The notes below the pieces were generated by a model that was not told the origin of the DNA, made no database searches, and saw only the letters and a program-made list of their open reading frames with translations. The translations under genes and the position numbers were made by a program. Of a stretch of 64,000 nucleotides of DNA, positions 21,770 to 37,023 are shown piece after piece. Position 1 is the first letter of the stretch. Each line of letters begins with the position of its first letter. Source of the stretch: Massilia sp. Root418 (GTDB lineage: Bacteria; Pseudomonadota; Gammaproteobacteria; Burkholderiales; Burkholderiaceae_D); assembly GCF_001425265.1 (NCBI RefSeq), contig NZ_LMEC01000026.1, forward strand, positions 124,001 through 188,000. The letters are read 5' to 3'.

Positions 21770-21854
21770 GCCCACGTGGCGGAATTGGTAGACGCGCATG
21801 GTTCAGGTCCATGTGCCGCAAGGTGTGGGGGTTCGAGTCCCTCCGTGGGCACCA
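21770..21854 (+). tRNA. tRNA-Leu (anticodon CAG), copy 1
   Basis: The 85-base gene has a GCCCACG/CGTGGGC acceptor stem, a TTCAGGT anticodon loop with CAG, a long variable arm, the GGTTCGAGTCC T-arm and an encoded CCA end. Four identical copies follow at 23171, 23418, 23543 and 25316. Confidence 0.97.
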
Positions 21855-21865
21855 CAGAATTCCGC

Positions 21866-21893
21866 AAAAAAGCCTCCTTCGGGAGGCTTTTTT
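21866..21893 (+). terminator. Terminator after tRNA-Leu copy 1
   Basis: AGCCTCC-TTCG-GGAGGCT is flanked by A and T runs. The same element follows copies 2 and 5. Confidence 0.9.
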
Positions 21894-22022
21894 CATTTCC
21901 GGCCACTGTCGGACTTGCTGACACCCGGCCGGCGCCAGCAGACCAAGCCGCCTGCAAGTGCCTGATTCCATTGCGCCGCACGGTTCTTGCATCAGTCAGG
22001 GCATTCCACTCAGGAGTGCGCC

Positions 22023-23114
22023 ATGAACATCCTTTCCGCCACCGCCGTCCTTGCCGCCCTGCTTGCCGTTGCGCCCGCGCAGGCTGCGCCCATCTTCCAG
22101 TTCCAGTTCACGCCCGGCACCACCCTGCAGGCCCAGCAAGGATTCATTGCGGCGGGCGCGCGCTGGTCCGCGCTGCTGACCGACGACATCACCGTCAACC
22201 TCACCGTCGGCTTCGGCGCACTGGGCGGCGGCATACTCGGCCAGGCCGCCAGCACGCAGGACTTCCATTCCTACGCCGACTTCCGCAGCGCCCTCACGGC
22301 CGACCGCAGTTCGGCGCTGGACAACACGGCCGTGGCGCATCTGCCCGGCACCAGTTTCGGCCTGCTGATCAACCGCACCGCCAACAACCCGCACGGCGCG
22401 GCCAGCGCCACGCCCTATCTCGACAACAACGCCAGCAACAACAACCGCACCGTCTACATCACCAACGCCGAAGCAAAAGCGCTCGGCATGGCGGTGGTGG
22501 ACGACACCCTGCCCGGCTGCATCGGCAACTGCGACGGTTTCATCCAGTTCAACAGCAATCTCGCCTTCGACTTCGACAGCAGCAACGGCATCGGCGCCAC
22601 GCAATACGATTTCGTCGGCATGGCAGCACACGAAATCGGCCACACCCTCGGTTTCATCAGCGGCGTGGACGTCCTGGACTACAACGCGCCGCCCAACAAC
22701 GGCCCCTTCAACGACGACGAATTCACCTACGTGTCCGGGCTGGACATGTTCCGCTACTCGGCGCTGAGCAGCGCCAGCGGTGTGCTCGACTGGACTGCCG
22801 ACGCCCGCGAAAAATACTTCTCGGTGGACGGCGGCGCCACGCTGGAAGCGGAATTCTCCACCGGCAGCACCTTCGGCGACGGCCGCCAGGCCAGCCACTG
22901 GAAGGACTTGATGATGCTGGGCCTGATGGACCCCACCGCGGCGCAAGGCGAACTGCTGCTCATCACCAATAACGACCTGCGTGCCATGGACAGCATCGGC
23001 TACAACCTGGCGCCGATACCGGAGCCGTCGCAGGCCGCCATGGTGGGCGCCGGCTTGCTGATGGCGCTGGCCTGGGCGGGCCGCAAGAAATATTTTCACG
23101 GAAACATCAATTGA
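22023..23114 (+). CDS. Secreted NF038122-like metalloprotease with PEP-CTERM anchor
   Basis: The ATG at 22023 opens a 363-residue protein. Residues 1-22 are a signal peptide ending in AQA. The zinc-protease motif is AAHEIGHTLGF, with HExxH and a third ligand position downstream. The C-terminus is a PEP-CTERM sorting signal: IPEPSQAAMVG, a hydrophobic segment, then a GRKK basic tail. It should be exported and processed by an exosortase, which is not encoded here. The gene sits between tRNA-Leu copies 1 and 2, and its TGA stop lies next to the -35 region of the copy 2 promoter. It resembles the Oxalobacteraceae NF038122 family. Confidence 0.8.
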   Translation: MNILSATAVLAALLAVAPAQAAPIFQFQFTPGTTLQAQQGFIAAGARWSALLTDDITVNLTVGFGALGGGILGQAASTQDFHSYADFRSALTADRSSALDNTAVAHLPGTSFGLLINRTANNPHGAASATPYLDNNASNNNRTVYITNAEAKALGMAVVDDTLPGCIGNCDGFIQFNSNLAFDFDSSNGIGATQYDFVGMAAHEIGHTLGFISGVDVLDYNAPPNNGPFNDDEFTYVSGLDMFRYSALSSASGVLDWTADAREKYFSVDGGATLEAEFSTGSTFGDGRQASHWKDLMMLGLMDPTAAQGELLLITNNDLRAMDSIGYNLAPIPEPSQAAMVGAGLLMALAWAGRKKYFHGNIN

Positions 23115-23117
23115 CGC

Positions 23118-23146
23118 TTGACCAAGGCCGCCGCGGCCTTTAAGAT
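23118..23146 (+). promoter_or_regulatory. Promoter of tRNA-Leu copy 2
   Basis: TTGACC at 23118-23123 and TAAGAT at 23141-23146 are 17 bases apart. The -35 region starts four bases after the metalloprotease stop codon. Confidence 0.6.
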
Positions 23147-23170
23147 TCGGGCCTCTGTTGCAGAACAACT

Positions 23171-23255
23171 GCCCACGTGGCGGAATTGGTAGACGCGCAT
23201 GGTTCAGGTCCATGTGCCGCAAGGTGTGGGGGTTCGAGTCCCTCCGTGGGCACCA
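23171..23255 (+). tRNA. tRNA-Leu (CAG), copy 2
   Basis: The sequence is identical to copy 1 over all 85 bases. It is preceded by GCCTCTGTTGCAGAACA, also found before copies 3 and, with one extra T, 5. Confidence 0.97.
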
Positions 23256-23266
23256 CAGAATTCCGC

Positions 23267-23293
23267 AGAAAAGCCTCCTTCGGGAGGCTTTTT
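23267..23293 (+). terminator. Terminator after tRNA-Leu copy 2
   Basis: AGCCTCC-TTCG-GGAGGCT is followed by a T run. It is nearly identical to the element after copies 1 and 5. Confidence 0.9.
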
Positions 23294-23342
23294 GCATTTG
23301 CGCCCGCCCCAGCTGTCCTGCTGAGAAATCTTGCTTTCGCTC

Positions 23343-23371
23343 TTGACGGCATGGCTGCCAGCCCTTACTAT
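23343..23371 (+). promoter_or_regulatory. Promoter of tRNA-Leu copies 3 and 4
   Basis: TTGACG at 23343-23348 and TACTAT at 23366-23371 are separated by 17 bases. A GC-rich discriminator (GCGTGCC) follows, as in stringently controlled tRNA promoters. Confidence 0.75.
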
Positions 23372-23417
23372 GCGTGCCTCTGTTGCAGAACACCGCAGCA
23401 AAGACAAAGAAGACAGA

Positions 23418-23502
23418 GCCCACGTGGCGGAATTGGTAGACGCGCATGGTTCAGGTCCATGTGCCGCAAGGTGTGGGGGTTCGAGTCCCTCCGTGGGCAC
23501 CA
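23418..23502 (+). tRNA. tRNA-Leu (CAG), copy 3
   Basis: It is identical to copy 1. No terminator separates it from copy 4, 40 bases downstream, so the two are probably one transcript. Confidence 0.97.
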
Positions 23503-23542
23503 CAGTTCTGTTTTCGATGTTGAGTTTTTCAGCAGTACCATT

Positions 23543-23627
23543 GCCCACGTGGCGGAATTGGTAGACGCGCATGGTTCAGGTCCATGTGCCGCAAGGTGTG
23601 GGGGTTCGAGTCCCTCCGTGGGCACCA
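23543..23627 (+). tRNA. tRNA-Leu (CAG), copy 4
   Basis: It is identical to copy 1, lies 40 bases after copy 3 and is followed by a different terminator from the other copies. Confidence 0.97.
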
Positions 23628-23642
23628 AGAATTCCGCAAAGA

Positions 23643-23677
23643 ACGCCGCAAACCATCACCGGTTTGCGGCGTTTTTT
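23643..23677 (+). terminator. Terminator after tRNA-Leu copy 4
   Basis: AACGCCGCAAACC and GGTTTGCGGCGTT form a long stem followed by a run of six T. Confidence 0.92.
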
Positions 23678-23736
23678 CATTGACGCGCCCAAATCGACGG
23701 CATAGCATGCTTATTCTTTTATTAATAAGGATACCC

Positions 23737-25263
23737 ATGCCGCTGCCTGCCCTGCGCGCCTGCTGCGCTGCCCTGCTGCTATCCCTGCTCGCCTCCGGTG
23801 CCGGCGCCACGGAAAGAACCGCCGCCGAATGGCAGGCTGCCGCGAGGGCGGACCTGGATGCGGTCCACAAGCTCATCCTCACCGCACACCCCGGCAGCAT
23901 CGACGACCTCAATCCCGGCTTCAAGGCATGGGCCGAGCAAGGCTACCGCGAAGCGCTGCAGCTGGTGCCGCGCGTAAACAGCTACGATTCCATGATGTCG
24001 GCCGTGCGCTATTACGTCACCGGCTTCCGCGACGGCCACCTGCTTTATTCGGACAATGCGCGCCGCGGCTATCCCATGCTGGTGAACGGCTGGCGGCTGC
24101 ACAAGCAGGGCGGCGACTACGTGGTCGACGCGCACCTGAAGGACTGGCCGGCACCGCTGCCGCCGATAGGCGCGAAGCTGCTGCAGTGCGACGGCCGCAC
24201 GCCGGATGCCATCCTGGCCAGCGACGTGGCGCCCTTCCTGGACCGGCGCAGCAACAGCAAGATGGCCGAATACCTGCCCGGCGCGCTGACCCTGCCCGCC
24301 CTGCCTGACCTGCAGCTCAAGCGCTGCCAGTTCCGCAGCGCGGACGGCGCGGTGATGGACATGCCTATTACTTACCAAGGCGTGGCCACGCAGCGCTTTT
24401 TCCGCGAATGGAGTAAAAGCCCACAACAGGGACAGCAACCTCAGCGCCGCAGCAACAAGTTCAGCTTCCAGGACGGCGTGCTCTGGGTAAGCGCAGCCAG
24501 CTTCAATACACTGCCGTCCAAGCCGCAGATCGCGGAATTCGACACCATGCTGGCCGAACTCGGCAAGCTGGAAGGCGTGCGCCTGATGGTGTTCGACGTG
24601 CGCGGCAACGGCGGCGGCAGCAGCGCCATCGGCGACAAGATCTTCACGGCCGCGACCGGCGGGCTGGACTACGACAAGCAGGATCTCGACAAGCTGCCGC
24701 GCACCTACGCGCAGTGGCGCGTGTCCGACGTGCTGCTGGAGAATACCGGCAAGTTCGCCAGGAGCTTCGCCGAACGCTACGGCGCGGACAGCGAGCAGGC
24801 GCGCCAGTCCGCCGCCTTCGCCCAGCAGGTGCAGCAAGCAAAGGCCAGAGGCGAGACCTGGGTGGAACAGCCCGCCGGCCGCCTGGTCACGCGCGCCGAC
24901 ATTGCCCGGCGCGGCGGCAAGCTGCGGCGCTACAGCGGCCCGGTGGCGCTGCTGACCGACGCGTCCTGCGCCAGCGCCTGCCTGGACTTCGCCGACCAGG
25001 TACTCAGCGTGCCCGGCGCCGTCCACCTGGGCCGCACTACCGGCGCCGACACGCTGTACATCGATACCGGCCGCGCCACGCTCCCGAGCGGCAACGTGCT
25101 GGTGCTGCCGCAAAAGGTCTGGCGCAACCGCCTGCGCGGCAGCGACGAGGCGCTGGTGCCAAGCGTGGTGCTGAAGGCGGACATGGACGATGACGCGGCC
25201 GTGCGCGCGGAAACGCTGGCGGCGCTGTCCGCATTGCAGCCGCGCCAGCAAGCGGCCCCTTGA
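23737..25263 (+). CDS. Secreted S41-family (C-terminal processing type) peptidase
   Basis: The ATG at 23737 has an AAGG ribosome site; the ATG at 23707 lacks one. The 508-residue protein has a signal peptide (residues 1 to about 22). The catalytic part includes LMVFDVRGNGGGSS and the LTDASCASACLDFADQ segment, where S41 peptidases carry the nucleophilic Ser, followed by LGRTTGADTLY. A PDZ domain is not obvious. The final TGA lies inside the TTGACG -35 box of tRNA-Leu copy 5. The target is unknown. Confidence 0.75.
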   Translation: MPLPALRACCAALLLSLLASGAGATERTAAEWQAAARADLDAVHKLILTAHPGSIDDLNPGFKAWAEQGYREALQLVPRVNSYDSMMSAVRYYVTGFRDGHLLYSDNARRGYPMLVNGWRLHKQGGDYVVDAHLKDWPAPLPPIGAKLLQCDGRTPDAILASDVAPFLDRRSNSKMAEYLPGALTLPALPDLQLKRCQFRSADGAVMDMPITYQGVATQRFFREWSKSPQQGQQPQRRSNKFSFQDGVLWVSAASFNTLPSKPQIAEFDTMLAELGKLEGVRLMVFDVRGNGGGSSAIGDKIFTAATGGLDYDKQDLDKLPRTYAQWRVSDVLLENTGKFARSFAERYGADSEQARQSAAFAQQVQQAKARGETWVEQPAGRLVTRADIARRGGKLRRYSGPVALLTDASCASACLDFADQVLSVPGAVHLGRTTGADTLYIDTGRATLPSGNVLVLPQKVWRNRLRGSDEALVPSVVLKADMDDDAAVRAETLAALSALQPRQQAAP

Positions 25264-25288
25264 CGGCTGCTCAGCCATACCTTACTAT
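25260..25288 (+). promoter_or_regulatory. Promoter of tRNA-Leu copy 5
   Basis: TTGACG at 25260-25265 and TACTAT at 25283-25288 are 17 bases apart, matching the copy 3 promoter and its GCGTGCC discriminator. The -35 box includes the stop codon of the S41 peptidase gene. Confidence 0.75.
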
Positions 25289-25315
25289 GCGTGCCTTCTG
25301 TTGCAGAACAACGGT

Positions 25316-25400
25316 GCCCACGTGGCGGAATTGGTAGACGCGCATGGTTCAGGTCCATGTGCCGCAAGGTGTGGGGGTTCGAGTCCCTCCGTGGGCACCA
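25316..25400 (+). tRNA. tRNA-Leu (CAG), copy 5
   Basis: It is identical to the other four copies over 85 bases including CCA. Confidence 0.97.
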
Positions 25401-31075: not shown

Positions 31076-31615
31076 ATGTTTACGAGTCCAGAGCAGTTCG
31101 CAGCCACCACCAAGGCGCTGTTTGAGTTCCAGCTAGAAACCTTCAACACGCTGACCACCAAGGCGGTGCAAGGCGTGGAACAGGTGGTGGCGCTGAATAT
31201 GGCCACCGCCAGGACCAGCGTGGAAGAGCAACTGGCAGCCGGCAAGGAAATCAGCGTGGCGCGCGACCCGAAAGCCGTGCTGGCCGTGGCTGCCGCCAAG
31301 GTGCAGCCCGGCATTGCCAACGCCGCCGCCTACAACGAGCAGCTGGGCGGCATCATCGCCGAGATCCGCCAGGAGTTCACCCGCGCCGCCGACGCCCACC
31401 TGACCGAGGCGAAAAGCACGCTGAGCGCACTGATCTGCGACGTGACCAAGAACGTGCGCCCGGGGTCCGAGAACGCGGTGCAAATCGTCAAGCAAGCCAT
31501 CGACAACGCGTTCGCCGGCTATGAGCAGGTCACCAACGCGACCCGCCAGGCCGTGGCCAACGTGGAGGCGCAGATCGCCAAGGCTGCCGCCACGGTCACC
31601 CCGCAAGAGAAGTAA
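31076..31615 (+). CDS. phaP: Phasin family protein
   Basis: The 179-residue protein follows the PhaP pattern: FTSPEQFAATTKALFEFQLETFN at the start, then long amphipathic helices rich in Ala, Gln and Val, with no signal peptide. Phasins coat polyhydroxyalkanoate granules. A strong GAGGAG ribosome site precedes the ATG. No other PHA gene lies in the window. Paralogues are common in this group of bacteria. Confidence 0.9.
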   Translation: MFTSPEQFAATTKALFEFQLETFNTLTTKAVQGVEQVVALNMATARTSVEEQLAAGKEISVARDPKAVLAVAAAKVQPGIANAAAYNEQLGGIIAEIRQEFTRAADAHLTEAKSTLSALICDVTKNVRPGSENAVQIVKQAIDNAFAGYEQVTNATRQAVANVEAQIAKAAATVTPQEK

Positions 31616-31679
31616 GCCGGGCGCAGCCCAACGGGCCGGCCAGCGCCGCCGGTTGCTCCCGGCCCGGTAACGCGTTACA

Positions 31680-31695
31680 CTGTATGAACATACAG
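31680..31695 (+). promoter_or_regulatory. LexA-type SOS box upstream of the VRR-NUC gene
   Basis: CTGT-ATGAACAT-ACAG fits the CTGT-N8-ACAG consensus exactly, within the longer palindrome ACTGTATG-AA-CATACAGT (31679-31696). It ends 16 bases before the ATG of the nuclease gene, where bound LexA would block transcription. It is the only such box I noticed in the window. Confidence 0.8.
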
Positions 31696-31711
31696 TCCGC
31701 AGCGCGTTGCA

Positions 31712-33355
31712 ATGATCAGAGTTCTGGAAAACGAGTTTTATTACCTGGATAACTTTCACCAGGTATTGCAGTGGATCGGCGAGCGCTACGACGACCTGCT
31801 CACTGCCGAGGAACGCGCCTTTCTATCCCAATTCCCCACCCTGCCCCGCCCGTCGCGGGCGCTGTTCGTGCGCATGGTCATGCGCAAGGGCCTGCTGTTC
31901 CGCGCCAGCAAGCTGGTGTACGCGGAAATCGGCTGCGCCCACGAGGCCGCGCGGCCGCTGGCCGAGCTGGGCTGGATAGACGCCGACCCGGTGCTGACCC
32001 TGGACGAGCTGTTCGCGCTGCTGCAAAAGCCGGAAATCGTGCGCGTGTTCCAGCTTGCCGGGCATGAAAAAAGCGCCCGCAAGCCCGAGCAGCTGGCGGC
32101 GCTGCGCGAGCGCCACGACGGGGCGCACCGCTTTTCTGCCTGGTGCGGCGTCGCCTTCGACCACGTCTACCAGGTGCTCGCCCAGGAACTGTGCGACCGC
32201 CTGCGCCTTATCTTCTTCGGCAACTATCACCAGGACTGGTCCGAGTTCGTGCTGTCCGACCTGGGCGTGTACAAGTACGAGAAGGTGGAGTTCTCGCCCT
32301 CCGCGCGCGGCTTCCGCAGCCGGCGCGACATCGACGACTACCTGGCGCTGCACCAGTGCCGCGAACGTTTCGCGGAGGGCGAAGCGCCGCAGGAGGTGCT
32401 GCGCAGCCTCCCGCCCGCCATCACCGGCAACGAATGGCTCAACAGCCGTCGCGACAAGTTGCTGTTCCAGATGGCGCAGCACCTGGAAAAGCAGCAGGAC
32501 TGGGACGGCGCGCACGCCATGTACGCCGACTGCGCCTATCCGGGGGCGCGGGCGCGCGCCATCCGCGTGCTGGAAAAGAGCGAGCGCTGCGGCGCCGCCC
32601 ATGCGCTGCTGCTGCAAGCCATGGCGCAGCCCGAGAGCGAACACGAGCGCCAGCAATTGCTGCGCATGCTGCCGCGCCTGAAGCGCAAGCTGGGCCACCC
32701 CAAGCCGCCGGCCGCGCAGCCCGCGCCGGTGGTGCGGCTGGAGCTGACGCTGCCGATGCCGGCCGGGGACTGGTGGGTGGAAGGCGTGGTGCGCGACCAC
32801 CTGACGCGCGCGGACGCGCCGGTCTATTACGTGGAGAACGCGCTGATCAACTCCCTGTTCGGGCTGCTGTGCTGGGACGCCATCTTCACCAGCATACCGG
32901 GCGCCTTCTTCCACCCCTTCCACCACGGCCCGGCGGACCTGCACAGCGCCGACTTCCAGCGCCGCCGCGCGCCGCAGTTTGCCGCCTGCCTGGGCCAGCT
33001 GGAAGACGGCAGCTACCTGGACACCATCCGCCGCAACCTCGCCGCCAAGGAAGGCATCCAGTCGCCGTTCGTGTTCTGGGGCGCGCTCGACGCGGACCTG
33101 GTGGAACTGGCGCTGGCCTGCATCCCGGCGGCGCACCTGCGCAAATGGTTCGAGCGCATCCTGCTGGACATCAAGGCCAACCGCAGCGGCTTTCCGGACC
33201 TGATCCAGTTCTGGCCCGCCGAGCGGCGCTACCACATGATCGAGGTAAAAGGCCCGGGCGACCGGCTGCAGGACAACCAGCTGCGCTGGATCAGCTACTG
33301 CGCCGAGCACCAGATGCCGATCACGGTGTGCTACCTGCAATGGGCGGATGCATGA
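31712..33355 (+). CDS. FAN1-like VRR-NUC structure-specific nuclease
   Basis: The 547-residue protein has an N-terminal DNA-binding/SAP-like region, a central helical TPR-like part and a C-terminal VRR-NUC domain. The catalytic pattern is Pro495-Asp496 in SGFPDL and Glu511-x-Lys513 in IEVKGPGDRLQDNQ. Length and layout match bacterial FAN1, which cuts 5' flap structures and can unhook interstrand cross-links. It starts 16 bases after a LexA-type box and overlaps the helicase gene by 4 bases, so both should be SOS-induced and translated together. Confidence 0.88.
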   Translation: MIRVLENEFYYLDNFHQVLQWIGERYDDLLTAEERAFLSQFPTLPRPSRALFVRMVMRKGLLFRASKLVYAEIGCAHEAARPLAELGWIDADPVLTLDELFALLQKPEIVRVFQLAGHEKSARKPEQLAALRERHDGAHRFSAWCGVAFDHVYQVLAQELCDRLRLIFFGNYHQDWSEFVLSDLGVYKYEKVEFSPSARGFRSRRDIDDYLALHQCRERFAEGEAPQEVLRSLPPAITGNEWLNSRRDKLLFQMAQHLEKQQDWDGAHAMYADCAYPGARARAIRVLEKSERCGAAHALLLQAMAQPESEHERQQLLRMLPRLKRKLGHPKPPAAQPAPVVRLELTLPMPAGDWWVEGVVRDHLTRADAPVYYVENALINSLFGLLCWDAIFTSIPGAFFHPFHHGPADLHSADFQRRRAPQFAACLGQLEDGSYLDTIRRNLAAKEGIQSPFVFWGALDADLVELALACIPAAHLRKWFERILLDIKANRSGFPDLIQFWPAERRYHMIEVKGPGDRLQDNQLRWISYCAEHQMPITVCYLQWADA

Positions 33356-35658
33356 GCACCGGCGATACCGCCTACACCGTTGCCGTGCGCGCGCTGTGCG
33401 AGTTCACAGCCAGGTCGGGCGACCTCGATCTGCGCTTCACGCCCACGCCCACCGCGCAGGAAGGCATTGCAGGCCACGCGCTGGTGGCGTCACGGCGCGG
33501 CGACAGCTACGAGAAGGAAGTGAGCCTGTCCGGCACTTTCGGACCGCTGCTGGTGCGCGGCCGCGCCGACGGCTACGATCCGCAGCAGAACCAGCTGGAG
33601 GAAATCAAGACCTTCCGGGGCGACCTGGCGCGCATGCCCGGCAACCACCGCCAGCTGCACTGGGCGCAGCTGAAGGTCTACGGCCACCTGCTGTGCCTTG
33701 CGCGCGGCCTGGCGTCCGTGCGCCTGGCGCTGGTGTATTTCGATGTCGGCAGCCAGAAGGAGACCTTGATCACGGAGCAGGCGGAGGCCGCCGAGCTGCG
33801 CGTTTTCTTCAAATTGCATTGCAGCCGTTTCCTGGCGTGGGCGGAGCAGGAGATCGCGCACCGCGCGCGGCGCGACACCGAACTCAAAGCCATGCGTTTT
33901 CCGCACGCGGACTTCCGGCCCGGCCAGCGCCAGCTGGCGGAAGCCATGTACAAGGCCAGCACGCGCGCCTGTTCGCTGCTGGCGCAGGCGCCCACCGGCA
34001 TCGGCAAGACCGTCGGCAGCCTGTTCCCCCTGCTGAAGGCCAGCGCGGAGCACAAGCTGGACAAGGTGTTCTTCCTGGCCGCGAAAACCTCCGGCCGGCG
34101 CATGGCGCTGGACGCGGTGGAGACCATCCGCGCGGCGTCGCCGCTATTGCCGCTGCGCGCGCTGGAGCTGGTGGCACGCAATACCGCGTGCGAGCATCCC
34201 GACAAAGCCTGCCACGGCGAATCCTGCCCGCTGGCGCAAGGATTCTACGACCGCCTGCCCACCGCGCGCAGCGCCGCGCTCGCCGCCTGCGGCCCTGCTG
34301 CGTCCGCGCAGGTGCTCGACAAGACCGCAGTGCGCGGCATCGCGCTGGCGCACCAGGTCTGCCCCTACTACCTGGGCACCGAGCTGGCGCGCTGGGCCGA
34401 CGTGGTGGTGGGCGACTATAACTACTACTTCGACAGCAGCGCCATGCTCTACAGCCTGACGCTGCAGAACGACTGGAAAGTCAGCGTACTGGCGGACGAG
34501 GCGCACAACATGGTGTCCCGCGCGCGCAAGATGTACTCGGCCGAGCTGGAACACGCCGGCCTGCGCATGCTGCGCAAGACCGCGCCCGAGGCGCTGAAAA
34601 AGCCGCTCGACCGCGTGCACCGCCAGTGGTCCGCCCTGGAAAAGGAACAGGACGGCGAATACCAGGTCTACCCGGACCTGCCGGACAAGTTCATGAACGC
34701 ACTGCAGACCGCCGTCACCGCCATCGGCGAACATTACGCGGAGCACCCGGCCTTCGTGGACGAAGAGCTGCAGCGATTCTATTTCGACGCCATGGGTTTC
34801 GCGCGCCTGGCCGAGAGCTACGGCCAGCACTCGCTGTTCGACATCACCGTCAGCGGCGCGGGCATGCGCATCAACTCCGTGCTCTGCCTGCGCAACATCG
34901 TGCCGGCCCCTTTCCTCAAGCCGCGCTTCGAGGCCGCGCATTCGACGGCGCTGTTCTCGGCCACGCTCAGCCCGTGGAACTACTACTGCGACACGCTGGG
35001 CATGCCGGACAACACCGCCTGGATAGACGTCGAGTCCCCGTTCATCGCCGAGCAGTTGTCGGTGCGCGTGGCGGGCCACATCTCGACCCGCTACCAGCAC
35101 CGCGACCGTTCGCTGGCGCCGATCGCGGAACTGATGGGCGGCCAGTATGCCCGCCAGCCGGGCAACTACCTGGCCTTCTTCAGCAGTTTCGACTATATGG
35201 AAAAGGCGGCGGCGCTGTTCGCCGAACAGCACCCGGGCGTGCCGGTGTGGCTGCAGACGCGGCGCATGGACGAAGCGGGCCGCGAGCAGTTCCTGGCCCG
35301 CTTCAGCGCCGCCAGCAGCGGCATCGGCTTCGCCGTGCTGGGCGGGTCGTTCGGCGAAGGCATCGACCTGCCCGGCGCGCGCCTGATCGGCGCCTTTATC
35401 GCCACCCTGGGCCTGCCGCAGCTCAATCCCGTGAACGAGCAGATCCGCCAGCGCATGGACGCCATCTTCGGCTCGGGCTACGACTACACCTACACCTATC
35501 CCGGCATGCAGAAGATCGTGCAGGCGGCCGGCCGCGTGATCCGCACCGAGACCGACCGGGGCACGGTCTACCTGATCGACGACCGCTACGCGCGGCCGGA
35601 AATCCAGGCACTGCTGCCCTCGTGGTGGAGCATCAGCAGCGCGCCGCCCAGGCCGTGA
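33352..35658 (+). CDS. PD-(D/E)XK nuclease fused to Rad3/XPD-type iron-sulfur helicase
   Basis: The 768-residue protein starts at the ATG overlapping the VRR-NUC stop. Residues 1 to about 170 form a RecB/Cas4-like nuclease with Asp73 (GRADGY), Glu84-x-Lys86 (EEIKTF) and Gln106 (WAQLKVY). The helicase follows: Walker A APTGIGKT (213-220), four cysteines at 280, 287, 292 and 337 positioned for a 4Fe-4S cluster as in XPD/DinG, and a DEAH box at 382-385. The C-terminal motifs include GSFGEGIDLPG and QAAGRVIRT. It should unwind 5'-to-3' and cut DNA, working with the FAN1-like partner. Confidence 0.88.
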   Translation: MSTGDTAYTVAVRALCEFTARSGDLDLRFTPTPTAQEGIAGHALVASRRGDSYEKEVSLSGTFGPLLVRGRADGYDPQQNQLEEIKTFRGDLARMPGNHRQLHWAQLKVYGHLLCLARGLASVRLALVYFDVGSQKETLITEQAEAAELRVFFKLHCSRFLAWAEQEIAHRARRDTELKAMRFPHADFRPGQRQLAEAMYKASTRACSLLAQAPTGIGKTVGSLFPLLKASAEHKLDKVFFLAAKTSGRRMALDAVETIRAASPLLPLRALELVARNTACEHPDKACHGESCPLAQGFYDRLPTARSAALAACGPAASAQVLDKTAVRGIALAHQVCPYYLGTELARWADVVVGDYNYYFDSSAMLYSLTLQNDWKVSVLADEAHNMVSRARKMYSAELEHAGLRMLRKTAPEALKKPLDRVHRQWSALEKEQDGEYQVYPDLPDKFMNALQTAVTAIGEHYAEHPAFVDEELQRFYFDAMGFARLAESYGQHSLFDITVSGAGMRINSVLCLRNIVPAPFLKPRFEAAHSTALFSATLSPWNYYCDTLGMPDNTAWIDVESPFIAEQLSVRVAGHISTRYQHRDRSLAPIAELMGGQYARQPGNYLAFFSSFDYMEKAAALFAEQHPGVPVWLQTRRMDEAGREQFLARFSAASSGIGFAVLGGSFGEGIDLPGARLIGAFIATLGLPQLNPVNEQIRQRMDAIFGSGYDYTYTYPGMQKIVQAAGRVIRTETDRGTVYLIDDRYARPEIQALLPSWWSISSAPPRP

Positions 35659-36274
35659 GTTCGCGGGCGCGCTTGCGCACCGTGATGACGGCGCTGCCGC
35701 CACGGTCGCTCTCGTAGGTGAGCTGGTAGAACTGGTCGGGCGTGACGTCGATCGCGGTCAGCTCGAACTTGTGCGCGCGCTGCGCAGCGCAGCGGGTATT
35801 GCCTGCAAATAGCAGGCGCGCGCCTTGCAGCAGCGTGCCTTGCTGCTCCAGCAGCGTGACGATGTCGCGGTCTCCAAGCGGCTGCTTCAGGTGGACACGC
35901 TGCGGCGACACGCCGCAGTCCGATGAGCGGTCCAGCCACACGTATTGCCGCTGCCGGCCGGTCCCGCTCCAGCGCTGCGCCGTGGCGTCGTACGCGTAGC
36001 CGTCGCCCTGCGCCAGGCACAAGCGCCACGCCGCGCGCTGCGGCGCGCGTTCGACCCAGGCCGTCACGCGCCAGTCCGCGCCGCCCTCTGCGCGCTGCAC
36101 TTCGTATCTGGCCTTTGGCACGGCGCGGCCGCCATGCTGGCTGAACCAGCTTTCAAAGGATTTGATTTCAGCCTCGCTGGGTGGACGCGTTTGCGCCATG
36201 CCATGGGAAGCCTGGGCCATGGCCAGTACGGCCGCCAGTGCCGGCGCCTGCAGGATGCGGATCAGCTTGTTCAT
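35633..36274 (-). CDS. Secreted protein of unknown function
   Basis: The ATG at 36274 overlaps the lytR-like gene by 4 bases, which fixes this start. The 213-residue product has a signal peptide ending near AMAQASHGMAQ (residue 28). The mature part has several Trp and paired Cys residues. I do not recognise the family. It is the last gene of a five-gene envelope operon and overlaps the convergent helicase gene by 26 bases. Confidence 0.7.
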   Translation of the reverse strand: MNKLIRILQAPALAAVLAMAQASHGMAQTRPPSEAEIKSFESWFSQHGGRAVPKARYEVQRAEGGADWRVTAWVERAPQRAAWRLCLAQGDGYAYDATAQRWSGTGRQRQYVWLDRSSDCGVSPQRVHLKQPLGDRDIVTLLEQQGTLLQGARLLFAGNTRCAAQRAHKFELTAIDVTPDQFYQLTYESDRGGSAVITVRKRARELTAWAARC

Positions 36275-37023
36275 TGGATCACGCTGCGCAGTTTCTGATA
36301 GCCGCTGCGGCTGATCGGCAGTTTGGCGCCATCCTTCAGCACAGCCACGTGGCTGTCCTTGCCGGCCTGCTCGATGCGGCTCATGCACTCGATATTGAGC
36401 AGATAGGACCGGTGTATTCGCAGGAACTTGTCCGCTTCCAGCTGGCTCTCCAGGTCGGACAGGCGCTGGTTCTTCAGGTAGGAGCGGCCCTCGGTGCGGA
36501 TCTGCACATAGTCGTCCTGCGCCTCAATATAGTCGATCTTTTCGGCGGCGATCACATGCACCTTGGCGCCGTCGCGTATCAGCACGCGGCCCAGCGGCCC
36601 CTTGCGCGCCGCCGCCTCCCGCACCACCTCGGCCACGCCCTGCTGGACTGGCGGCGGCGCGCCGCCGTCCCTGGCCAGGCTGGCGCGCACATGCGCCAGC
36701 GCCTGGTCGAAGCGCTGCTGGCTGAACGGCTTGAGCAGGTAATCCAGCGCATGGTACTCAAACGCCTTGACGGCATACTGGTCGAACGCGGTGGCGAACA
36801 TGAAGCGGCATTTTCCAGCTGCCAGCTCGGCCACTTCGAAGCCGTCCAGCTTGGGCATCTGGATGTCCAGTATCGCCAGGTCCGGCGCCAGTTCGGTGAT
36901 GGCTTTCACCGCCTCGAAGCCGTTGACGCATTCGGCCACCAGTTCCACGTCCGCATGCGCCGCCAGGTACTCGCGCACCACGCCGCGCGCCAGGGCCTCA
37001 TCGTCCACAATAATGATACGCAT
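36271..37023 (-). CDS. LytTR-family response regulator
   Basis: The 250-residue regulator has a receiver domain (residues 1 to about 120) with the IIIVDDE acidic pair, the phosphoacceptor Asp in LAILDIQMPKLDG and the LLKPF Lys. A C-terminal LytTR DNA-binding domain follows (EKIDYIEAQDDYVQIRT; FLRIHRSYLLNI). It pairs with the LytS-type kinase immediately upstream, 3 bases away. Confidence 0.92.
   Translation of the reverse strand: MRIIIVDDEALARGVVREYLAAHADVELVAECVNGFEAVKAITELAPDLAILDIQMPKLDGFEVAELAAGKCRFMFATAFDQYAVKAFEYHALDYLLKPFSQQRFDQALAHVRASLARDGGAPPPVQQGVAEVVREAAARKGPLGRVLIRDGAKVHVIAAEKIDYIEAQDDYVQIRTEGRSYLKNQRLSDLESQLEADKFLRIHRSYLLNIECMSRIEQAGKDSHVAVLKDGAKLPISRSGYQKLRSVIQ

Follow-up and report, generated by a model that had tools for sequence, protein, structure and literature searches.

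The window (the whole 64-kb stretch of DNA that was analysed) contains two overlapping genes that follow a candidate LexA-type box (Table 1). The first of them encodes a bacterial FAN1. Pfam searches with the 547-residue protein recovered FAN1_HTH (2.6e-39), FANC_SAP (3.8e-18) and VRR_NUC (7.5e-35), all above the gathering score and united in one chain, the arrangement used to recognize the bacterial FAN1 proteins (the KIAA1018 clade of VRR-NUC). Its catalytic PD-(D/E)XK residues are intact: E375 (which lies upstream of the VRR-NUC domain), D496 and K513 are invariant in 15/15 sequences, and E511 is kept in at least 90%. The FAN1 of Pseudomonas aeruginosa (PA1865; structures 4r89 and 5y7g) matches the protein from end to end (E ~5e-199), with D496, E511 and K513 corresponding, by the alignment offset, to its D507, E522 and K524, and the nuclease of human FAN1 (4ri8 and others) is likewise homologous.

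The second gene encodes a 768-residue helicase that carries a nuclease domain of its own. Pfam identified Helicase_C_2 (1.1e-39) and DEAD_2 (1.5e-10) and returned no match for the N-terminal nuclease domain, which is predicted to adopt a Cas4/MGME1/EXO5-type fold. Across an alignment of 28 helicases, the window's included, with identities down to 27%, residues D73, E84-x-K86, Q106, H42, E56 and Y110 are identical in all 28, and 26 of them, including the protein studied here, have the full set of cysteines 280, 287, 292 and 337. Judged by its sequence, an N-terminal PD-(D/E)XK domain with the H, E, D, E and K residues (H42, E56, D73, E84 and K86) joined to an XPD/DinG core with a CCCC Fe-S motif, the protein has the architecture that was named EndoDinG in 2025. 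The solved DinG of Finegoldia magna (9kqh; a literature search found no paper describing this structure) also matches the helicase, at ~30% identity. The initial annotation had described a perfect CTGT-N8-ACAG palindrome 16 bases before a VRR-NUC (FAN1-like) gene, a 4-base overlap with the next gene, and, in the latter, a RecB/Cas4-like nuclease (Asp73, Glu84-x-Lys86, Gln106) fused to an XPD-like helicase with four Fe-S-type cysteines; all of these features are confirmed, and its picture of two nuclease active sites and one helicase is supported, the two sites being separate and the helicase of the Fe-S type.

Table 1. Features of the FAN1-helicase locus (positions in the window)
Feature	Position	Strand	Basis or detail
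LexA-type box CTGTATGAACATACAG (candidate)	31680-31695	.	Pattern scan and comparative conservation; 16 bases before the FAN1 ATG (31712)
FAN1 gene, 547 aa (FAN1_HTH, SAP, VRR-NUC)	31712-33355	+	ORF, Pfam and structure match
FAN1_HTH domain, residues 9-90	31736-31981	+	Pfam
FAN1 SAP domain, residues 94-144	31991-32143	+	Pfam
VRR-NUC nuclease domain, residues 432-542	33005-33337	+	Pfam; P495-D496 and E511-V512-K513 inside
ATGA overlap	33352-33355	+	ORF coordinates; helicase ATG 33352-33354, FAN1 TGA 33353-33355
EndoDinG-type nuclease-helicase gene, 768 aa	33352-35658	+	ORF, Pfam and structure matches
N-terminal PD-(D/E)XK nuclease domain, ~residues 1-178	33352-33885	+	H42, E56, D73, E84, K86, Q106, Y110; predicted fold
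Second CTGT-N8-ACAG	33394-33409	.	Inside the helicase gene, where the conserved A-L-C-E-F-T-A is encoded
XPD/DinG-type helicase core, ~residues 188-759	33913-35628	+	Walker A K219; DEAH 382-385
Four-cysteine Fe-S-type motif (C280, C287, C292, C337)	34189-34362	+	Alignment

A palindrome of this kind could be a chance occurrence or the site of another repressor, and the bare pattern within the window is not beyond chance by itself: CTGT-N8-ACAG occurs twice against 0.59 copies expected, and 11 of 100 shuffled sequences held at least two. We judged the second copy, which has a GC-rich core and falls in a conserved coding stretch, to be such a chance match rather than a regulatory site. The first copy is more than chance because of its 7-bp arms, its position, the excess of the pattern in the genome and its conservation. 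The host genome has 39 CTGT-N8-ACAG sites as opposed to 11 for the reversed pattern; two boxes of the same type as that of FAN1 lie directly upstream of lexA, and others precede genes for a DnaE-type polymerase, a Y-family polymerase, an SRAP protein and RuvC. FAN1 thus has the LexA-type box of its own species near its start codon (a scan of positions 31500-36100 found no sigma-70 consensus promoter).

Comparison with other genomes points in the same direction. A perfect box precedes 46 of the 64 FAN1 genes of the family that have enough upstream sequence, in 11 of 18 genera (0.11 expected; one match with the reversed control), and in 45 of these 46 loci 12-111 bases separate its end from the estimated start. 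Loci with the helicase only (20 fetched, 19 from the family and one from the order, with G017 and G074 left out of the 21 such family genomes; 18 testable) have a perfect box in a single case. With the form CTGT-N8-(A/C)CAG the comparison is 50/64 against 1/18 (Fisher p 2e-8, uncorrected for kinship). This form is absent within 266 bp of FAN1 in the other 14 family loci; in five of these a perfect box lies farther out, 332-484 bases upstream, and in the other nine ~1 kb of upstream sequence holds none. It was also found in 10/10 loci of Pseudomonas, Herbaspirillum and Pollutimonas with enough upstream sequence (this named set overlaps the family set, since L134 and L135 are apparently the family loci L096 and L094) and, in the wider phylum, before FAN1 in 19 of the 33 close loci, the remaining 14 lacking it. 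Before these genes the letters of the spacer vary, while the AT-rich core and the flanking A and T are kept. Taken together with the resemblance to the lexA boxes and with the second motif described below, this makes a chance palindrome or another repressor's site very unlikely. The search for pair and box in related genomes thus did not bear out the refuting outcome named in the initial annotation, a box not conserved before orthologues: most loci of the family retain it, although some lack it. The LexA-type control claimed at the outset is supported, as far as sequence comparison goes, by both the host genome and its relatives.

In another class, FAN1 is preceded by a different motif, which is common to lexA and FAN1. 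GAAC-N7-GAAC lies 33-136 bases upstream of FAN1 in 5/5 loci, nowhere else in those loci, and precedes lexA in 4/4 of the genomes concerned. Because this motif is not enriched genome-wide (forward and reverse matches in G401 add up to 143, those of the control to 181), the claim for the second class rests on its position: at the density seen in G401, ~0.005 copies would be expected per 300 bp. The five loci are not independent: a single genus supplies four, including two copies from the same genome, and the fifth belongs to another genus and family. With that proviso, the distant FAN1 genes of this class appear to carry the LexA-type motif of their own lineage. One locus of the class, L186, also has a CTGT-N8-ACAG at -196, which was counted among the box matches and is probably due to chance.

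The FAN1 and EndoDinG families are both already known, and control of FAN1 by LexA is, as far as our searches show, new: neither such control nor a FAN1-EndoDinG pair was found among the literature matches listed, which does not prove their absence. The main text of the EndoDinG review (PMC11981726) does not contain the words FAN1 or VRR, and its section 3.7 attributes to EndoDinG an endonuclease rather than an exonuclease activity, as unpublished data. For P. aeruginosa, whose LexA regulon is given as ~15 genes (PMC13114513, a review with no occurrence of PA1865 in its main text), passages of PMC12796719 describe PA1865 (FAN1) and PA1866 as induced by UV-C without a known LexA-like regulator, in contrast to the LexA control proposed here. 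The same passages report that PA1865 is also induced by ciprofloxacin and is repressed by hydrogen peroxide, a response that plain LexA control would not predict. Strain PA7 (in which, rather than in PAO1, box and pair were observed) has a perfect box before FAN1 and a helicase of the same kind after it, and it is possible that the FAN1 box in Pseudomonas is the cause of the unexplained UV induction of PA1865/PA1866.

The two genes are closely associated. Among 145 genomes of the family, FAN1 is found in 66 and the helicase in 87; all 66 FAN1 genomes also have the helicase, and in 65 of them the genes are adjacent, the estimated offset ranging from -19 to +68 bp (in the 66th the locus is interrupted by contig ends). 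Pseudomonas, Herbaspirillum and Pollutimonas show the adjacent pair in 11/11 loci, and in the wider phylum 31 of the 33 close loci keep the same order with abutting ends (L167 and L174 have no such helicase within the stretch seen). Iyer et al. 2006 reportedly may already describe a Rad3-type neighbour. Passages of PMC9635880 note that most VRR-Nuc subfamilies, FAN1 included, adjoin genes of DNA metabolism and, citing that work, that helicases are found downstream of the T1p21 subfamily.

A shared switch does not necessarily imply a shared task. SOS control could be real while the proteins act in separate pathways, the helicase as a general damage helicase (like DinG/YoaA) and FAN1 as a crosslink or flap nuclease. 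Of the 87 family genomes with the helicase, 21 have no FAN1, 17 of the 18 testable helicase-only loci have no box, and the presence of FAN1 changes at least eight times on the helicase tree. Within the stretches covered, none of the 18 distant FAN1 loci has a helicase of this kind, although some of these loci are boxed; the loss of FAN1 at locus L115, where box and helicase were kept, fits as well. However, FAN1 was not found without the helicase in the family (0 of 66 genomes), and the abutting order persists across the family, Pseudomonas and most of the close wider-phylum loci. We therefore consider separate pathways a serious possibility that falls somewhat short of an even chance.

A role against invading DNA, which the initial annotation had also proposed, found little support. 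The helicase does match the PADLOC model typeIV_DinG (PDLC01439, E 3.4e-121, residues 182-759). FAN1 matches none of the PADLOC models, ten neighbouring ORFs gave one marginal match (a response regulator, E 2.8e-4), and csf2 (TIGR03115, a single marker for which no control genome scored above the cut-off) was not found in the host genome. We set aside the type IV CRISPR or defence reading, which appears very improbable.

From the gene order, the overlap, the intact active-site residues, the predicted folds and the conserved box, all of which are observed, we consider a two-gene SOS operon, whose damage-induced products process crosslinks or blocked forks together, to be the best explanation and a probable one. 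What we infer beyond this is that LexA binds the box and that the genes are co-translated, together with the substrate, the sequence of steps and any interaction of the proteins. Upon DNA damage, activated RecA would lead to cleavage of LexA and free the box, and FAN1 and the nuclease-helicase would be co-produced through the ATGA overlap. Helicases of this family are 5'-3' translocases on single strands. Where both strands are blocked, for example by an interstrand crosslink or at a stalled fork, the enzyme could open the neighbouring duplex. FAN1 would then cut the resulting 5' flap stepwise and unhook the lesion, and the Cas4-like domain of the helicase might trim the freed 5' end. The proposed role in crosslink repair draws on published work on the solved homologue, since titles and passages report 5'-flap cleavage and crosslink unhooking by the P. 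aeruginosa protein.

An analogy with human Fanconi-type repair suggests itself, human FANCJ (9ej9) being a weak match to the helicase (6.9e-07) and, like it, a member of the Fe-S XPD family. Fanconi-type crosslink repair includes human FAN1 and FANCJ/XPD. Unlike those proteins, the helicase studied here has its own nuclease domain and is putatively controlled by LexA. More tentatively, and as a proposal that we regard as doubtful though possible, the operon may be a bacterial two-gene counterpart of the FAN1 and FANCJ/XPD-type branch, LexA-induced and working as a unit where forks are crosslinked or blocked, with SOS control of FAN1 having become established on separate occasions, and under different LexA motifs, in two or more classes of proteobacteria. 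If these ideas are correct, FAN1 would be a widespread SOS gene, EndoDinG would be linked genetically to a partner, and there would be a simple explanation for why UV induces PA1865/PA1866; the operon would also offer a two-gene system for studying cooperation between a FAN1 nuclease and an XPD-family helicase at crosslinks. A different pair of P. aeruginosa, PA1044-PA1045 (dinG), is given in passages of PMC12796719 as a LexA target that includes a DinG-named helicase, and is distinct from PA1865-PA1866.

The FAN1 gene and the EndoDinG-type nuclease-helicase gene behind it (the helicase) most likely form a damage-induced pair, preceded by a LexA-type CTGT-N8-ACAG palindrome (the box). The coordinates of these elements agree with the initial annotation, which had placed the palindrome 16 bases 5' of the FAN1 gene and described a 4-base overlap between the genes. 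A phasin gene precedes the pair, the opposite strand beyond it carries an ORF without a Pfam match and a LytTR-type response regulator, and the nearest named protein relatives belong to Pseudoduganella, Massilia and Duganella. The FAN1 protein contains FAN1 HTH, SAP and VRR-NUC domains (Pfam) and aligns with the solved P. aeruginosa FAN1 (PaFAN1, PA1865) across 540 residues. Aligning 15 sequences, with identities as low as 25%, showed no variation at E375, D496 or K513 and conservation of E511 in at least 90%; D496, E511 and K513 correspond to PaFAN1 D507, E522 and K524, residues named in excerpts of PMC9635880.

Features of the window (G000:C26:124001-188000; genome size 7.27 Mb) and of other loci
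Feature	Location	Strand	Remark
Box, CTGTATGAACATACAG	31680-31695		16 bases 5' of FAN1 ATG
FAN1 gene	31712-33355		547 aa
Helicase gene	33352-35658		768 aa; starts within FAN1's final codons, ATGA common to both
LytTR response regulator	36271-37023		
tRNA-Leu(CAG), five genes	21770-25400	+	
Box at integrase-family gene, L004	C1:401685-401700		own genome
Conserved small ORF, L087	4626-4850	-	
Conserved small ORF, L091	632-853	+	
Conserved small ORF, L106	571-789	+	
Conserved small ORF, L085	647-955	+	
Helicase frame, L168	2659-3021	+	adjoins FAN1

Within the host's family, 66 of 145 genomes carry FAN1 and 87 carry the helicase (E below 1e-100), the former all contained in the latter. In 65 of the FAN1 genomes the two genes abut, with offsets estimated at -19 to +68 bp; in the remaining one, G060, each reaches a contig end. 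Counted as loci rather than independent events, a perfect box occurs no more than 266 bp 5' of FAN1 at 46 of the 64 family loci whose available sequence sufficed (11 of 18 genera), an association conserved in the majority but not universal. The looser form, CTGT-N8-(A/C)CAG, is found at 50 of the 64 (12 genera); shuffled expectations were 0.11 and 0.27, respectively, and the reversed-pattern control gave 1. In 45 of the 46 perfect-box loci the box ends 12-111 bases from the estimated FAN1 start. Among helicase-only loci (20 fetched, one from outside the family), 1 of 18 testable has a box. No nearby box precedes the other fourteen family FAN1 loci, of which five carry a perfect one farther off, at 332-484 bases upstream, and the remaining nine lack any over about 1 kb. 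Four of those five belong to a single genus and have a conserved 73-103-aa ORF between box and FAN1. This ORF, which gave no Pfam match in three scanned copies and no NCBIfam match in two, possibly encodes an unnamed SOS-controlled small protein (SOS, the LexA-controlled DNA-damage response).

In the host genome, where one LexA was found, CTGT-N8-ACAG occurs at 39 sites versus 11 for the reversed pattern, and two of the 39 sit immediately 5' of lexA. Ten proteins behind part of these sites were scanned: LexA, a DnaE-type polymerase, a Y-family polymerase, SRAP and RuvC were recognised, as were a radical SAM protein, a gyrase-B-type protein and a phage integrase, and two lacked a Pfam match. 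At L004 it is a phage-integrase-family gene that has a box at its start, so a mobile element may be under SOS control.

Outside the family set, FAN1 and the helicase are adjacent in all 11 named loci (Pseudomonas, 7; Herbaspirillum, 3; Pollutimonas, 1), with the looser box in 10 of 10 having enough upstream sequence, four of them perfect. A wider phylum sample (398 genomes, FAN1 in 56) added 33 close loci; FAN1 is followed by the helicase in 31 of them, and the box is present in 19 and absent from 14. It occurs in 4 of 18 more distant loci, six of which, from genus g268, lack it, and in 2 of 7 testable class-level loci. Seven FAN1 loci (L153, L157, L162, L164, L165, L168 and L169) share ATGGAT-N2-ATGA(A/C)CAGT near the start, which resembles the P. 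aeruginosa PA7 box with an altered left half and may be a degenerate LexA site that extends over the start codon. The L168 helicase frame ends after 121 codons, yet matching sequence goes on, pointing to a broken gene or a sequencing error.

A different motif, GAAC-N7-GAAC, the LexA motif of Alphaproteobacteria, lies 33-136 bases 5' of FAN1 in five distant loci. These have 26-28% identity and come from four genomes that belong to another class of the phylum; they are not independent, as four are from one genus. These loci hold no further copy, and the stretch seen around them contains no helicase. The motif also precedes lexA in all four genomes; the generic pattern shows no genome-wide enrichment.

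SOS/LexA control of the operon is well supported by such comparisons, which uphold that part of the damage-inducible machine proposed in the initial annotation; the helicase, however, is kept without FAN1 in 21 of 87 family genomes. As no family FAN1 genome lacks the helicase, FAN1 accompanies the helicase within the family, whereas the helicase does not require FAN1. Mapped onto a 100-helicase tree, FAN1 presence requires at least eight changes, two of them forced by well-supported branches. At L115 (G059, Herbaspirillum clade) FAN1 has been cleanly lost upstream of the helicase, a natural deletion scar retaining the box, a 19-codon remnant with a FAN1-like beginning and the ATGA junction. 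At a crosslink or a blocked fork, the helicase would open the DNA and FAN1 would cut the resulting flap; we infer both this substrate and the partnership.

In P. aeruginosa PA7, TATCTGTATGCATGAACAGTAC lies 5' of FAN1 and the helicase 3' of it, an order by which PA1866 would be the helicase. Excerpts of PMC12796719 place PA1865 and PA1866 among 18 UV-C-induced genes without known LexA-like repressor control, and report that ciprofloxacin also induces PA1865 and that hydrogen peroxide represses it. Weighing against LexA control in this species, excerpts of PMC13114513 put the regulon at about 15 genes, and PA1865 goes unmentioned in its main text. Our overall confidence is slightly lower in view of the repression by hydrogen peroxide and of the two close loci that lack the helicase. 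No description of SOS control of the operon, in the various genera or in a second class, was found among the papers listed in the literature searches; both protein families are known.

Elsewhere in the window, the LytTR regulator matches PADLOC model PDC-M60B marginally (E 2.8e-4, residues 2-61), probably through no more than the common receiver domain. The five tRNA-Leu(CAG) genes, spread over 3.6 kb and interspersed with protein ORFs, suggest repeated duplication.
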